In this document: in pieces, positions 1,916-27,746 of the stretch | Numbering within the stretch: position 1 is the first letter of the stretch | Layout of the letters: the number at the start of each line of letters is the position of its first letter | Virus record (IMG/VR): IMGVR_UViG_3300023242_000538 | Location: 1 to 30,874 of that record | Direction: 5' to 3' (one strand) | DNA length: 30,874 bases | From: a virus | Translations under genes and position numbers: made by a program | The notes under the pieces: generated by a model | Database searches by the model: none | Seen by the model: the letters and a program-made list of their open reading frames with translations, nothing else | Told to the model about the DNA's origin: nothing

Positions 1916-3279
1916 TGCAAGCCGAGCCTAAAGCGTTAATTAGGGCTTACCTTAAAAGTTTTAACGGCAAAAGTAAAGCAGTGCAGCAGCAGGACATTTT
2001 AAACGCTGCTGCACGAATTACGGACTACCAAATCAACACTCACGGGCTTACACCCCACTACCAACTAGCTGGGTTAATTTATCAGAAATTAATAAGTAAA
2101 ATGAAAAAAATCGAGCACACCACACGGGCACACGCTCTACTATCGGCCTCGGGAGCGGATCGCTGGCTTAACTGCACACCTTCACCCCGCTTGGAGGAGA
2201 ATTTTAAGAACGAGAGCAGCGCGTTTGCGCAGGAGGGAACACTAGCGCACGAGTTCGCGGAGCTGCTATTAAAAAAGTACCTAAACAGGATTGACGCTAA
2301 GGCCTACAAGGATCAATTTACCGCGCTAAGTAAGGCGGAGTACTACAGCGATGAAATGCTGGACTACGTCAACGTACACGTTACTTATGCCCTCGAGCAG
2401 TTCGCAGCGGCGCAGAAGTCTGACAAGCACGCGGTACTGCTAATTGAAGAGCGCGTCGACATTACGCACCTAATAGAGGGCGGGTTTGGAACTTGCGATG
2501 TAATTATAATTGCTTGCGGCGTTATGGAGGTTATAGACTTGAAGTATGGCCTTGGGGTTCGCGTATCACCCGAGAATAACTCACAGCTCAAGCTATACGC
2601 CGCTGGAGCACTCGACAAATACGACGTTAAGTATGACATCAATAGCGTAATTTTAACCGTAACGCAGCCCCGCATGGATTCTATAAGCTCTTGGGAGCTT
2701 AAGGCAAGTGATTTAATTAAATGGGGCGAACAAGTTGTCAAGCCAACGGCGTTAATTGCTTACCAGGGCGAAGGAGATCAGAAAACAGGCGAATGGTGCA
2801 AGTTTTGCAAAGCCTCCCCTAAGTGTGCAGCACAGCAGGCCCTAGCGCTTGAGGCCGCGCGGGAGGCATTTGCAGATCCTCAACTCTTAACAGATAACCA
2901 ACTTACCGACGTATACGCTAAGATAGAAGCAGTAAGTAAGTGGTTCTCTAGTGTGCAGGCGTATATGTACTCTGAAGCAATGGGCGGTAAGAAGTGGGAC
3001 GGGCTTAAACTTGTTGACGGTCAAAACCGTCGCGGCTGGAGCGACGAGCAGGCAGCGCGTGAACTTCTAGCAGGCAATTACAAGACCGAGGACTTTACCA
3101 ATGTGAAAATGAAGGGCATAGGAGAGATAGAAAAATTAGTAGGTAAAAAGAATTTTCCTATTATGTTTTCCGAGGTACTCGAGAGCAAGAGGACTTCACC
3201 TACTTTAGTAGATGAGAGCGACAAACGCCCCGAAATGGTCAAGGAGGACTACTTCGAGGATTTAGACGAAGAAATATAA
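1915..3279 (+). CDS. DUF2800 Cas4-like PD-(D/E)XK exonuclease with N-terminal extension
   Basis: The product has 454 residues from the ATG at 1915, which overlaps the previous stop. The Cas4/RecB-type nuclease signature is visible: LAHEF (His112), CD (Asp195), then EVIDLKYG with Asp208 and Lys210. Four cysteines, C87 early and C295/C298/C304 late, fit the Fe-S cluster arrangement of Cas4/AddB nucleases. DUF2800 proteins usually begin like the segment at internal Met63 (ATG at 2101, MKKIEHTTRAHALLSASGADRW), so about 62 residues are an extra N-terminal domain. The likely job is DNA end processing for recombination, together with the SSB encoded downstream. The alternative start at 2101 would give a 392-residue protein of normal family length. 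Confidence 0.85.
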   Translation: MQAEPKALIRAYLKSFNGKSKAVQQQDILNAAARITDYQINTHGLTPHYQLAGLIYQKLISKMKKIEHTTRAHALLSASGADRWLNCTPSPRLEENFKNESSAFAQEGTLAHEFAELLLKKYLNRIDAKAYKDQFTALSKAEYYSDEMLDYVNVHVTYALEQFAAAQKSDKHAVLLIEERVDITHLIEGGFGTCDVIIIACGVMEVIDLKYGLGVRVSPENNSQLKLYAAGALDKYDVKYDINSVILTVTQPRMDSISSWELKASDLIKWGEQVVKPTALIAYQGEGDQKTGEWCKFCKASPKCAAQQALALEAAREAFADPQLLTDNQLTDVYAKIEAVSKWFSSVQAYMYSEAMGGKKWDGLKLVDGQNRRGWSDEQAARELLAGNYKTEDFTNVKMKGIGEIEKLVGKKNFPIMFSEVLESKRTSPTLVDESDKRPEMVKEDYFEDLDEEI

Positions 3280-3298: not shown

Positions 3299-3547
3299 AT
3301 GGGAAATTGCACACAAAACCCGTTCACTTCTTTAAAAACTGAACAGCAACCAACTAACGAGGTTAGTGAGTTTGCAATTAAAGCAGCGGAAGATTTATTT
3401 AACCGCTACACAAATAGCGAAATTAGGGAATTTTTAGAAGAGTTAAAACAGCACTGCCTCGACAGGTTGCACAAGCAACTAGAGCAAGCTAGAGACGAGC
3501 ACCAGAGGCTTGACGACGACTTTGGTAATTTGCAAAGAGAAATATAA
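3299..3547 (+). CDS. Small acidic coiled-coil protein, unknown
   Basis: The product has 82 residues. The N-terminal third is polar, and the rest is strongly helical with a coiled-coil look (about residues 35-75, rich in E, Q, L and R), ending in LQREI. It lies between the exonuclease and the SSB-like gene with short gaps, and a new promoter follows. No family recognised. Confidence 0.65.
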   Translation: MGNCTQNPFTSLKTEQQPTNEVSEFAIKAAEDLFNRYTNSEIREFLEELKQHCLDRLHKQLEQARDEHQRLDDDFGNLQREI

Positions 3548-3552
3548 AATAA

Positions 3553-3584
3553 ATTTGCATATAACATAAATTAATTTTATCTTT
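3553..3584 (+). promoter_or_regulatory. Promoter for the SSB-like gene
   Basis: TTTG at 3553-3556 and TATCTTTA at 3577-3584 are separated by 20 bp. The last base of the -7 box deviates from consensus (A instead of G). The start codon is 36 nt downstream. Confidence 0.65.
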
Positions 3585-3620: not shown

Positions 3621-4154
3621 ATGGCTTTAAGAGAAAACCAAGTGGTTACAGGAGAGGTAAGATTGTCTTACGCAAATTTGTTTAAGGCGCGAGCGATGAA
3701 CGAGGGAGAGACCCCGAAGTACGGCAGCATGATCTTAATTCCTAAGAAGGATAAGGCGACTGTAGAACGCTTTAACGAGGCGCAAGAGTTCGCTAAACAA
3801 GCGGGTAAGCTTAAGTTTGGCGGTAAAGTACCCGCTAATTTGAAAACTCCTTTAAGAGACGGTGACGAGGAATATCCAGACGACCCAACGTTTGCGGGTA
3901 TGTGGTTTTTTAACGCTTCAAACCAAAGACGCCCTATAGTGGTAGACCGTTCAAAGTCTCCGCTTACAGAGGACGACGACGAGATTTACAGCGGCGTTTA
4001 TGGTAAAGTAGTGGTTAACTTGTTTGCTTACTCTGGTAAGTCAAAAGGAATTGCTGCAGGTTTTGAGGCCTTCCAGAAAACACGAGACGGTGAACGCTTA
4101 GGCGGTGGAGGTATCGACATTGACGACGCGTTCGGCGACGAGGACGAGATTTAG
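3621..4154 (+). CDS. DUF2815 single-stranded DNA-binding protein
   Basis: The product has 177 residues. The pattern LSYANLFKA at the N-terminus, PKKDKATVERF, DDPTFAGMWFFNASNQRRP, YSGVYGKVVVNLFAY and AAGFEAFQKTRDGERLGGG is characteristic of DUF2815, the Enc34-like phage SSB family with an OB fold. The C-terminus is a strongly acidic tail (DIDDAFGDEDEI), the usual protein-docking tail of SSBs. It follows its own promoter and pairs functionally with the upstream DUF2800 exonuclease, a common phage arrangement. It ends in TAG, which shows that TAG is a normal stop in this genome. Confidence 0.9.
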   Translation: MALRENQVVTGEVRLSYANLFKARAMNEGETPKYGSMILIPKKDKATVERFNEAQEFAKQAGKLKFGGKVPANLKTPLRDGDEEYPDDPTFAGMWFFNASNQRRPIVVDRSKSPLTEDDDEIYSGVYGKVVVNLFAYSGKSKGIAAGFEAFQKTRDGERLGGGGIDIDDAFGDEDEI

Positions 4155-4160
4155 ATTAAA

Positions 4161-4470
4161 AAGAGGTTGAGGTTTTGCGGGTTCGACCCCCGCAACCTCT
4201 CTACAAGTTTGTATTTGTTTAAGCCGGAGCAACTCTTTAAGACCATTCTCCCGCACTTCGGAAGTTACGAAGTAAAATAATAAAGTTCGTGCATACGCAA
4301 AACCGCAGCGTTACGGGAGTTTTGCAATTAAAAATTTTTTGGTTTAAAAAAGTTAATCTTAGACCCGCGTACTCTGGCGTTATTAGAGTAAAAGATTACG
4401 CTAAGGGCTAAGGGCAGAACCTCTTAATCAGTAGCACTAAAGCCCTGATAATTAAATCGGGGCTTTTTTT
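4161..4470 (+). ncRNA. Candidate large structured non-coding RNA
   Basis: The gap 4155-4485 contains no ATG on the plus strand and no open frame, yet has several complementary segments. They are: 4161-4168 with 4418-4425 (8 bp, enclosing the whole domain); 4169-4174 plus 4177-4181 with 4189-4193 plus 4194-4199 (11 bp with a 2-nt bulge and loop TTCGACC); 4267-4271 with 4286-4290; 4297-4303 with 4319-4325 (7 bp); 4354-4360 with 4392-4398 (7 bp), enclosing 4370-4375 with 4385-4390 (6 bp). A terminator hairpin at 4439-4470 would form the 3' end. The first hairpin has a perfect tRNA T-arm appearance. No transcript-specific promoter is visible, so it would be made by readthrough from the SSB promoter. 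It could be a free RNA or a leader controlling the polymerase. All helices were found by eye. Confidence 0.5.
4439..4470 (+). terminator. Strong intrinsic terminator just before the polymerase gene
   Basis: AGCCCTGAT (4441-4449) pairs with ATCGGGGCT (4456-4464), nine pairs including one G-T, with a 6-nt loop, followed by a run of seven T. It ends 15 nt before the polymerase ATG. An upstream AGGGCT (4404-4409) is fully complementary to the left arm AGCCCT and could act as an anti-terminator. Confidence 0.85.
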
Positions 4471-4485
4471 AATAAATTTATCGCT

Positions 4486-6447
4486 ATGCAAAAACTACAC
4501 ATAGACATCGAAACTTACAGCAGCGTTGACCTTATCACGTGCGGGGCTTATAAATACTTCGAGAGCCCCGATTTTGAAATACTAATTATTGCTTATGCCT
4601 TCGATAAAGGAGGTGTCAAAGTGTTTGATAGGACTGATTTACACCAACCCTACCCCTTGGAGCTTGCCAAGGCTCTAGTTGACCCCAACATCGAGAAACA
4701 CGCCCACAACGCAAACTTCGAGCGTAAAGCGTTCGAGGCTTACGGCATAAACACACCTATTGAACAGTGGCACTGCTCAGCGGTTAAAGCGGGGTACTGC
4801 GGCCTGCCTCTGTCTCTGGACGGCGTAAGTAAAGCCTTGGAGCTTGGAGAGGGTGGGAAGTCAACCGAGGGTAAGGCTTTAATTAAGTACTTCTCCTGCC
4901 CTGTTAAGCCTACCAAGGTAAACGGCGGGCGAACTCGAAACCTACCACACCACGACCCACATAAGTGGGATGCCTTCAAGGACTACTGCAAGCAGGACGT
5001 TAACGCCGAGCGTAACGTAGGCGCTAGGTTGCTAGAGTACAAAATTCCACAAATGGAACGGCAGCACTACATTTTAGATCAACAGATAAACGACCGCGGT
5101 ATTTTAATAGATACCGACTTTGCGCTGCAAGCTACCGTGATGGACGACCTATTCAGCGCAGAACTATTCCTAGAGCTCCAGCACTTAACGCGGCTAGACA
5201 ACCCCAACAGCCCGGCGCAATTAAAGAAGTGGTTAAGCGCTCAAACAGGGCTACAAGTCAACAGCGTGGCAAAAGCGAACGTTTTAGAACTGCTCGAGGG
5301 TAAAACTATTCCAATAGTGGAGGAGGTATTAAAACTTCGACAAATGGGCGCTAAGACTTCAACAAAGAAATATGTATCTATGATCAACTGCCACGGCGAC
5401 GACAACCGCGCCCGAGGGCTGTTGCAGTTTTACGGGGCTAACCGTACGGGCCGCTGGGCGGGTCGATTGATCCAAATGCAAAACCTGCCTCAAAACCACT
5501 TGCAGCACTTGGAGCAAGCCCGCGCGGCTGTTGCTAGTGGAGACTACGACCTTACTAAGATGCTTTACGACGACATTGCAAGTCTGCTATCCCAACTCAT
5601 AAGAACGGCCTTCATAGCTAAGCCCAAGCACACCTTCGCTGTTGCAGATTTTAGCGCGATTGAGGCCCGAGTTATAGCGTGGCTATCGGGGGAGACTTGG
5701 AGGCTTAAAGTTTTCAATACACACGGCAAAATATATGAGGCGTCCGCGTCTAAAATGTTTAACGTTCCAATAGAGCAAGTAACCAAGGGCTCGGACTATC
5801 GGGCTAAGGGTAAAGTAGCGGAGTTAGCACTTGGATATCAGGGCAGCGTTGGAGCACTTAAGACAATGGGAGGGGAGAAAATGGGACTGACTGAGGTTGA
5901 AATGAAGTTAATCGTTACTAAGTGGCGCAAGGCTAACCCTGCAATAGTGCAACTTTGGTACGACTTGGAGCAGTGCGCTGTGCAGGCGCTTAAAACCCGC
6001 AAGGCCGTAACCTCGCAGCATAAAGGGCTGGTGTTCGACTACAACGGTGAATTGCTTACAATACGTCTGCCCTCTGGACGCAAGCTATTTTACCAGTCCC
6101 CGAGCTTTTCAAAAAATCAATGGGACAACCTCTCAATCCGTTATAAAGGAATGGATCAGACCACAAAGCAGTGGGGCTGGGTTGACACGTACGGCGGCAA
6201 GTTGACCGAGAACATAGTACAGGCGATAGCGAGAGACTTACTCGCAGAAGCTATGCAGCGCGTTGACAAGTCGGGCTACGACATCGTGCTGCACGTTCAC
6301 GATGAGGCGGTGTGTGAAGTTCCTGTAATTGGTAGCGAGAAGGCGCTAGAGCAAATTTGTGATTTAATGGGGCAAACGTCGGACGTTTACAACGGTGTGC
6401 CGTTTCCAGCAGAGGGGTACTTGACCCCGTTTTATAAGAAGGATTAA
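4486..6447 (+). CDS. Family A DNA polymerase with 3'-5' exonuclease domain
   Basis: The product has 653 residues. The N-terminal proofreading exonuclease begins at once (DIE at residues 7-9; NANFERKAF is its second motif), as in phage-type Pol I enzymes lacking the 5' nuclease. The polymerase half shows RTGRWAGRLIQMQNLPQ, motif A DFSAIEAR (388-395), motif B-like YRAKGKVAELALGYQG, and motif C HVHDEA with catalytic Asp606. All key residues are present, so it should be an active replicative polymerase. Transcription must pass the terminator 15 nt upstream of the start or use an unseen promoter. The operator/promoter module for the next genes starts at its stop codon. Confidence 0.95.
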   Translation: MQKLHIDIETYSSVDLITCGAYKYFESPDFEILIIAYAFDKGGVKVFDRTDLHQPYPLELAKALVDPNIEKHAHNANFERKAFEAYGINTPIEQWHCSAVKAGYCGLPLSLDGVSKALELGEGGKSTEGKALIKYFSCPVKPTKVNGGRTRNLPHHDPHKWDAFKDYCKQDVNAERNVGARLLEYKIPQMERQHYILDQQINDRGILIDTDFALQATVMDDLFSAELFLELQHLTRLDNPNSPAQLKKWLSAQTGLQVNSVAKANVLELLEGKTIPIVEEVLKLRQMGAKTSTKKYVSMINCHGDDNRARGLLQFYGANRTGRWAGRLIQMQNLPQNHLQHLEQARAAVASGDYDLTKMLYDDIASLLSQLIRTAFIAKPKHTFAVADFSAIEARVIAWLSGETWRLKVFNTHGKIYEASASKMFNVPIEQVTKGSDYRAKGKVAELALGYQGSVGALKTMGGEKMGLTEVEMKLIVTKWRKANPAIVQLWYDLEQCAVQALKTRKAVTSQHKGLVFDYNGELLTIRLPSGRKLFYQSPSFSKNQWDNLSIRYKGMDQTTKQWGWVDTYGGKLTENIVQAIARDLLAEAMQRVDKSGYDIVLHVHDEAVCEVPVIGSEKALEQICDLMGQTSDVYNGVPFPAEGYLTPFYKKD

Positions 6448-15146: not shown

Positions 15147-15179
15147 TTTGTTTTTTATTTGAAAAGTGCTGTATCTTTG
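15147..15179 (+). promoter_or_regulatory. Promoter of the packaging/tail region
   Basis: TTTG at 15147-15150 and TATCTTTG at 15172-15179 are separated by 21 bp, the same spacing and flanking AATTTATTTG as the promoter at 855-887. A GTAAACAAT box at 15121-15129 lies 17 bp upstream. The -7 box ends only 5 nt before the ATG at 15185, which predicts a leaderless or nearly leaderless mRNA. Confidence 0.8.
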
Positions 15180-26254: not shown

Positions 26255-26710
26255 ATGAAAATTAAAAATCCAATTTTGGCCAGCATGCTCGCCAAGTTAG
26301 GCGTCGAAGTGAAAGCCGAGCTAATCGTGGACGACACGAACGGCCTATCTATTACTTTCCCCGATATTTCGGACGTCGTAGAAATTGCAGAAGGTGTGGC
26401 GGTGAACGCTCCAGACGGTACTTATACAGTAGCTGACGGTGAGAACACAATCACGATGACTGTGTTAGGCGGTATTGTAACGGCTTACGAGCTTACTACT
26501 CCCGCCGCTCCAGACGCGCCAGTAGAGGCAAACGCGGAAGTACTTGCAGTGCTTGAGGCCGTTGTAGAGGCAAACGTTAAGGCTAACGGCTTAATCGTAG
26601 CACTACAGGCAGAAATGAAGGCCTTAAAAGTTTCTTTGAAACACGAGGGCCAACAAGCTCCAGCGGCTGCTGCTGGTAAAACGAATCCACAATTTAAAAT
26701 TCTAGGATAA
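26255..26710 (+). CDS. Scaffold-like/head protein
   Basis: The product has 151 residues. A small domain (about 1-85) with the pattern DGTYTVADGENTITMTVLGG is followed by an Ala/Glu-rich helix (PVEANAEVLAVLEAVVEANVKANGLIVALQAEMKALK) of coiled-coil character. The combination and the place between protease and major capsid protein fit the internal scaffold or a core protein cleaved by the protease. No direct homology can be proven from memory. Confidence 0.65.
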   Translation: MKIKNPILASMLAKLGVEVKAELIVDDTNGLSITFPDISDVVEIAEGVAVNAPDGTYTVADGENTITMTVLGGIVTAYELTTPAAPDAPVEANAEVLAVLEAVVEANVKANGLIVALQAEMKALKVSLKHEGQQAPAAAAGKTNPQFKILG

Positions 26711-26711
26711 A

Positions 26712-27746
26712 ATGGCTACATTGAATCAAGTATGCATCCCTGCGGGGAGAGTTATAGAGGGTGTTTTTGAGCTAAGCTCAATCGAGGAGGCGTTATCAAT
26801 CTCATCTTTAAAGTACAACACTACTTTACAAGTAGATGCTGACAGCCTGTTTTTATCACCAGAGGCCATAGCGGACGCTGTAGCTATGGTAGGCTGCGAA
26901 ATTACGGAATCGTGCGACCTTCCTGCTGTTTTGGAATCAAAGCAGTATAATTTTATGGCGAGTTGTAACCTATGTTTGAACGAGTTGACCTTGAACGAGC
27001 GAAAGGCGTTCGGAATTAACACATCAAAACCAGAGCCAACTGCGTCACTCTCAACACGTTACGAAACGCGTTTCATCGCTAACATTTTGAACTCAACGCG
27101 AAAAATCAACTGGTTAGGCTCAAAGGCTTATGTAGCGGCTAACTTAGCCAACGCGGCCCTGTTACCGAACTACACTAAAGTGGACGGTATCTGGACTAAG
27201 ATAGTAGCACTGTCTCCAGCAGCCCCACGTTACACTATCGAAAAGAACGCAGAGCTAACCAAGGTTTTACAAACTACTTGGACGGGCGATGAGGTTTTAG
27301 ATGTGATTGAGGATATGAGACTATTGCAGTCCGCTACAATGGCGACAGTTGTAGATACTCTTAAATTTGTGCAAATTACGGCAGAAATGTACGACGCTCT
27401 TATTCGCTCTATGCGATTGAAAGATTTCGACTTATGCTGCGTAGGTTCTTTAGCTTCACAGGTATCTGGAGGGGTTGAAATTCCTGTAATTTTGTACGGT
27501 GATTTAACCATTGTTAAATACACTGAATTGTCGGCTGCAATCCGTGACTTGGCCCTTGTAGGCAACGCGTGGAACTTGCCTAACCGAGTAGTGATGTCGT
27601 TAGGCTTGCCTATCGTTAACTACACACAAGCGGGATCCTTTGAGGAGGACTTTACAGCGGTGAACGGAAAATATCTAGCTTCTTACAGTCTAACGACTGC
27701 AATAGTTGACCCTTTTCCTGCGGATTTCTACGTATTAGGCTACTAA
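26712..27746 (+). CDS. Major capsid protein (putative)
   Basis: The product has 344 residues and lies directly after the protease and scaffold-like genes (1 nt gap). It has an HK97-fold-like pattern: a variable N-terminal arm, VDGIWTKIVALSP and a long helix-turn region (EVLDVIEDMRLLQSATMATVVDTLKFVQITAEMYDALIRSM) like the spine helix and P-domain. Codon choice is clean and biased, as expected for a highly expressed gene. It contains an unusual number of cysteines near residues 60-95 (GCEITESC... CNLCLNE). Confidence 0.75.
   Translation: MATLNQVCIPAGRVIEGVFELSSIEEALSISSLKYNTTLQVDADSLFLSPEAIADAVAMVGCEITESCDLPAVLESKQYNFMASCNLCLNELTLNERKAFGINTSKPEPTASLSTRYETRFIANILNSTRKINWLGSKAYVAANLANAALLPNYTKVDGIWTKIVALSPAAPRYTIEKNAELTKVLQTTWTGDEVLDVIEDMRLLQSATMATVVDTLKFVQITAEMYDALIRSMRLKDFDLCCVGSLASQVSGGVEIPVILYGDLTIVKYTELSAAIRDLALVGNAWNLPNRVVMSLGLPIVNYTQAGSFEEDFTAVNGKYLASYSLTTAIVDPFPADFYVLGY

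Follow-up and report, generated by a model that had tools for sequence, protein, structure and literature searches.

Phages of Bacteroidota recurrently carry tRNA-like elements in the gap between the gene for the single-stranded DNA-binding protein (SSB) and that for the DNA polymerase. The DNA analyzed here (the window, meaning the whole 30,874-nt stretch of the IMG/VR record IMGVR_UViG_3300023242_000538) holds one of these elements, which is the most reduced form among its relatives. The gap covers positions 4155 to 4485 (331 nt) and is flanked upstream by the SSB gene (3621 to 4154, plus strand), taken from the ORF list and coding for a DUF2815/Gp2.5-like ssDNA-binding and annealing protein (phrog_112, E value of 5.9e-60), and downstream by polA, the gene for a family A DNA polymerase (4486 to 6447, plus strand; phrog_17, E value of 8.3e-138). 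Nearly all genes run in the same direction in the window, as they do in the Croceibacter phage P2559Y, and GC skew accordingly pointed to no replication origin in either. Matches to the Bacteroidota-type promoter (TTG-N-TAnnTTTG) were seen in the window at 3530 to 3560, 856 to 884, and 15148 to 15176, lying 5' of the SSB gene, a repressor-like gene, and packaging genes, and their type suggests a Bacteroidota host.

Judging from its pairing, the element at 4162 to 4200 (plus strand, as are all features of the gap given below) appears to be a reduced tRNA-like minihelix, an acceptor stem set on a T-arm in which an 8-nt linker stands in for the D-arm and the anticodon arm. The acceptor 5' strand AGAGGTT (4162 to 4168) pairs at 7 of 7 positions with the 3' strand AACCTCT (4194 to 4200), and between them lie the linker GAGGTTTT (4169 to 4176) and the T-arm GCGGG TTCGACC CCCGC (4177 to 4193), with a 5-bp stem and a canonical 7-nt T-loop. 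The 7-bp acceptor stem and the 5-bp T-stem with a TTCRANN loop are those of the tRNA family (RF00005), and neither a D-arm nor an anticodon arm is found in the only 8 nt from acceptor to T-arm. The minihelix begins about 7 to 8 nt past the SSB stop codon and has the 3' end CTACAA, without CCA. When this gap was dinucleotide-shuffled 20,000 times, an acceptor plus T-arm element arose in 3 of the shuffles, and the pattern scan, in which the acceptor 5' strand was allowed within 110 nt, gave zero matches on both strands of three shuffles of 722 kb.

The initial annotation had placed a hairpin with a T-loop at 4169 to 4199. This hairpin is real, with 11 bp interrupted by a 2-nt bulge (6+5), but its identity as a tRNA acceptor and T-arm had been missed. 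RNAfold favors this slipped register (4169 to 4174 with 4194 to 4199) at -16.9 kcal/mol, compared with -14.8 kcal/mol for the tRNA register; both are acceptor-on-T-arm minihelices with an identical 3' strand. Two phages that are near-identical to the window (L002 and L003) share 37/39 and 39/39 positions of the minihelix, respectively (95 to 100%), and keep all 12 acceptor and T-stem pairs. In the tRNA register, both changes fall at unpaired positions, and one of them breaks the outermost pair of the 11-bp register. Directly downstream, a hypervariable spacer of 54 nt (4201 to 4254) has an identity of 40 to 56% between the same phages. Among viral contigs, the 24-nt T-arm/acceptor sequence was found only in L002 and L003, and it was found in 0 of 395 Bacteroidota genomes. 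ARAGORN called no gene in the window, and the search against Rfam 15 at gathering and permissive thresholds gave nothing (best subthreshold E value of 1.3). A tmRNA, permuted form included, was also considered and rejected: no 5' domain was found, and neither ARAGORN nor Rfam detected in the window the combination of tRNA-like domain, tag reading frame, and pseudoknots.

The relatives were gathered by polymerase homology, SSB homology, and a conserved block, without regard to tRNA content. Among them, SSB-polymerase gaps repeatedly contain one to three tRNA-like elements, with sequences differing from phage to phage. Across 186 loci identified through homology to the SSB or the polymerase (1,314,588 bases, or 1.31 Mb, of which the gaps account for 67,581 bases, about 5%), ARAGORN made 20 tRNA calls, and all 20 lie between the two genes. 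Nineteen were assigned to the gap automatically and the 20th (L206) by inspection, as it had been scored outside because the polymerase start had automatically been placed too far upstream (element at 3070 to 3143, polymerase match at 3171). With the Rfam tRNA model, 13 of 13 matches fell inside the gap in 20 loci (111 kb) partly chosen for having an element, and four matches were obtained in 17 further loci. Cultured phages are included: P2559Y (NC_023614) has a tRNA-like element at 26696 to 26781, the sole one in its genome, within an unannotated SSB-polymerase gap of 719 nt, and the Bacteroides phages BF486P2 and BF503P1 have such elements in the same gap. The element is absent from some Bacteroidota phages with both genes (L187, L205, BO668P2, and SJC22), and none was seen in the seven Bacteroides, Phocaeicola, and Parabacteroides phages with distant SSBs that were checked. 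We found no description of tRNA-like elements at this site in the open-access literature searched.

The elements form a graded series that goes from ordinary tRNAs to those with an abnormal anticodon arm, those with none, and finally the minihelix. Ordinary-looking tRNAs are found in L195 (Cys GCA), L024 (Ser GCT), and L254 (Gln TTG). Others keep the acceptor, D-arm, and T-arm with an abnormal anticodon arm, the loop of which has 8 nt in L192, 12 nt in L222/L234, 3 nt in L015, and 4 nt in L018, while L207 has a long extended stem. The anticodon arm is missing in L198, L093, L020/L021, L027/L029, and the window, and 8 of the 20 ARAGORN calls lack a usable anticodon (4-base, 2-base, or stop). 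The acceptor and T-stems covary: over 34 elements, a set partly selected for pairing, the 12 pairs are formed in 96.6% of cases, 11 of the 12 are changed on both sides, and the covariation score is 0.946, versus 0.214 when shuffled. As the set was partly chosen for pairing, the shuffle test serves as the neutral test. When T-arms were picked first, most had an upstream 7-bp acceptor match, with a chance probability of 0.002 to 0.03 each.

The elements lie close to one or the other gene. Some are close behind the SSB stop, at 7 nt in the window and at 10 to 29 nt in L016, L023, L217, L027, and L029, and others are located about 4 to 32 nt 5' of the polymerase start (L182, L193, L195, L197, L198, L207, L226, and L018). 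In many relatives, SSB and the element have a terminator-like hairpin between them, and the stretch from the element to the start codon is short and A-rich. Other structures were seen in these gaps. A conserved motif, CACAAATAGC-NAGG-NGAGATAAGCTAAAAGACTCC, which occurs in otherwise unlike phages, stands directly 3' of the tRNA-like element (L017:1541, L021:2816, L194:3208, and L214:3301) and is likely an H-type pseudoknot (TAGC/GCTA and GGGAG/CTCC, with GAGG/CCTC in others). Between two tRNA-like elements in L016 (2487 to 2625) and L018 (2750 to 2880) there is likely a further structured RNA, closed by GTAAGAT/ATCTTAC, whose inner stems differ compensatorily between both phages. Directly 3' of the SSB stop, L017/L018/L020/L021 have perfect hairpins, AAACTAAAGAGG-CTCGATA-CCTCTTTAGTTT, which resemble a linker-less minihelix with a T-like loop.

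Our preferred reading, held tentatively and somewhat short of probable, is that the tRNA-like shape at 4162 to 4200 marks a specific site, between two replication genes, for RNA processing by RNase P and RNase Z. Once transcribed and folded, the element would have its 5' end, at 4162, cut free by the host RNase P and its 3' end, past about 4200, by RNase Z (or by exonucleases); both cuts would free a small RNA and part the SSB message from the downstream RNA. In the relatives with the element just 5' of polA, the polymerase mRNA produced by the same cuts would start with a short leader rich in A. Model hairpins that consist of nothing but the acceptor stem, T-stem, and T-loop are cleaved by bacterial RNase P RNA (PMC11143913), and the pairing in the window predicts the arrangement of such a substrate, an acceptor stacked on a T-arm behind a 5' leader. 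The enzymes would require only the acceptor and T-arm (plus elbow), and we propose this as the reason why anticodon arms can change or be lost. A processing mark would explain most simply where the elements lie, which arms they keep, and why the anticodon arm is unconstrained. Against it stand the lack of an encoded CCA, the preference of about 2 kcal/mol for the slipped register, and the fact that the element is not universal. Moreover, the window element is separated from polA by a terminator and a conserved block and thus cannot on its own provide the 5' end of the polA mRNA. For the Bacteroidota phages as a whole, we would suggest, with equal reserve, that non-decoding tRNA mimics, from near-whole tRNAs to bare minihelices, are fixed between the SSB and polymerase genes and serve to punctuate the operon or to decoy host enzymes directed at tRNAs.

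The rival that we consider the most interesting, albeit unlikely, is that of a decoy or counter-defense tRNA mimic, in which the small RNA is itself the product, retains the portions to which tRNA-acting enzymes bind, and either lacks the anticodon loop that anticodon nucleases would attack or ties up a host factor that binds tRNA. Several features would suit a decoy: the acceptor, the T-arm, and often the D-arm persist where anticodon loops have been deleted, enlarged, or given odd sizes; the sequences are highly divergent from one phage to another, which recalls an arms race; and there are as many as three elements per gap (L016 and L023). However, a decoy predicts neither the fixed SSB-polA site nor ordinary tRNAs there, and the window element has lost its D-arm. 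Since some elements resemble ordinary tRNAs, decay from tRNA genes also has to be weighed, and we rate it slightly below the decoy: the gaps would be an insertion hot spot with phage tRNA genes in decay and with no present function. tRNA genes are common in phages, and the graded series from the ordinary tRNAs of L195 and L254 to the minihelix of the window is what decay would leave. Yet decay should spare the acceptor and T-arm no more than it spares the anticodon arm, and instead the 12 pairs covary among relatives and are kept in L002 and L003 right beside the 54-nt spacer.

An improbable alternative is a regulatory RNA switch, in which 4162 to 4168 pairs either with 4194 to 4200, forming the minihelix, or with 4418 to 4425, forming the helix (4161 to 4168 with 4418 to 4425) that the initial annotation had described as closing a large domain. 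This closing helix is present, with 8 of 8 pairs, and as it shares its 5' strand with the acceptor stem, the two are mutually exclusive. Both partners contain AACCTCT, each pairing is free of mismatches and is shared by the three near-identical phages, and the minimum free energy fold combines the slipped minihelix with the closing helix. On the other hand, the closing helix never varies, being invariant in the window, L002, and L003, relatives differ in sequence after the block, there is no ligand and no expression platform, and by a rough estimate an 8-bp match is expected about once by chance in 331 nt.

The initial annotation had interpreted the gap as a single multibranched RNA of about 300 nt, which now seems very improbable. 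Its ingredients are there: the gap has no ATG, it folds better than its dinucleotide shuffles (z score of -3.3, or -3.1 without the terminator), an intrinsic terminator stands at its 3' end (4439 to 4466), and the hairpin at 4297 to 4303/4319 to 4325 (7/7 pairs) and the two layers of the stem at 4354 to 4360/4392 to 4398 (7/7) and 4370 to 4375/4385 to 4390 (6/6) can all be formed. The folding advantage is nevertheless confined to the two ends, namely the 5'-most ~48 nt and the terminator; with both removed (4203 to 4437), the z score is -1.0 and 30 of 200 shuffles fold equally well, so the sequence gives no support for one large folded domain. L003 keeps the 7-bp hairpin and breaks one pair of the outer two-layer stem. 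Distant relatives do not conserve the downstream half, and the parts of the gap are replaced separately, as modules. What stands of the earlier proposal is a structured, conserved noncoding RNA that is absent from Rfam.

The gap looks rather like a row of separate modules: the minihelix, the hypervariable spacer, a covarying hairpin, an AT-rich block, a short conserved stretch, and the terminator. The hairpin (4297 to 4325; stem GCAAAAC/GTTTTGC, loop CGCAGCGTTACGGGA) retains 7 of 7 pairs in L003 through two A-U to G-U changes. Compared by position, since MAFFT/RNAalifold misaligned it, its counterparts in L016, L020/L021, L026, and L093 have different stems that end 8 to 10 nt 5' of the TTTTTTGG block. 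That block (ATTTTTTGGTTTAAAAAAGTTAATCTTAGACCCG, 4334 to 4367) is AT rich with an inverted repeat inside, nearly invariant, and present in one copy per phage, and it may serve as a promoter for polA or as a replication origin. The single-copy TTTTTTGG-N11-TTAATCTTAGACCCG does not match the standard Bacteroidota promoter (TTG...TAnnTTTG). The following stretch (4362 to 4436), in which AACCTCTT (4418 to 4425) carries the second copy of the acceptor 3' strand, is conserved at 95 to 97% in the two nearest phages and folds no better than shuffles (z score of -0.5 for the 76 nt at 4362 to 4437 alone). The terminator (4439 to 4472), an 11-bp stem followed by a T run, is well supported, its pairs being kept in L002 and L003 mostly via G-U changes. 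Lastly, we give almost no credence to an attP site, at which an integrating phage would carry the 3' end of a host tRNA gene: such sites carry the T-arm plus the acceptor 3' strand, both present in the window, but the acceptor 5' strand is present too, the 24-nt sequence is missing from the 395 Bacteroidota genomes searched, no integrase was found among 30 window ORFs scanned against PHROGs (small ORFs only in part), and relatives hold different tRNA-like sequences at the same place.

Among known systems, the pseudo-tRNA tRNA-Other of Bacillus cereus (PMC3399842) is likewise a tRNA-like RNA outside translation, although it has a Trp anticodon, is chromosomal, and is unconnected to SSB-polymerase gaps. 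RNase P model substrates such as pAT1 (PMC11143913) have the same two arms, of 7 and 5 bp, with a T-loop TTCGANN, but they are synthetic, whereas the window element is a natural one in a phage gap, with an 8-nt linker and no encoded CCA. If the processing reading is true, these phages would cut their own replication transcripts with host tRNA-maturation enzymes, using tRNA shapes worn down to the part that those enzymes need. As the cultured P2559Y and BF486P2 carry unannotated elements, a direct test is possible. Phage tRNA genes, such as the T4 tRNA cluster, are also phage encoded and tRNA-like, and some relatives' elements resemble ordinary tRNAs; in contrast, the elements described here are fixed to one intergenic site, many are without a usable anticodon, and that of the window is without D and anticodon arms. 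A confirmed processing role would mean that "odd" phage tRNAs need not serve translation. In mitochondrial tRNA punctuation, tRNAs are excised from between coding genes. The likeness lies in tRNA shapes that are flush with the flanking genes and would set mRNA ends, while here they belong to a bacterial phage and in the window are reduced below a tRNA. A processing mark of this kind would be the bacterial-virus counterpart of the mitochondrial system.
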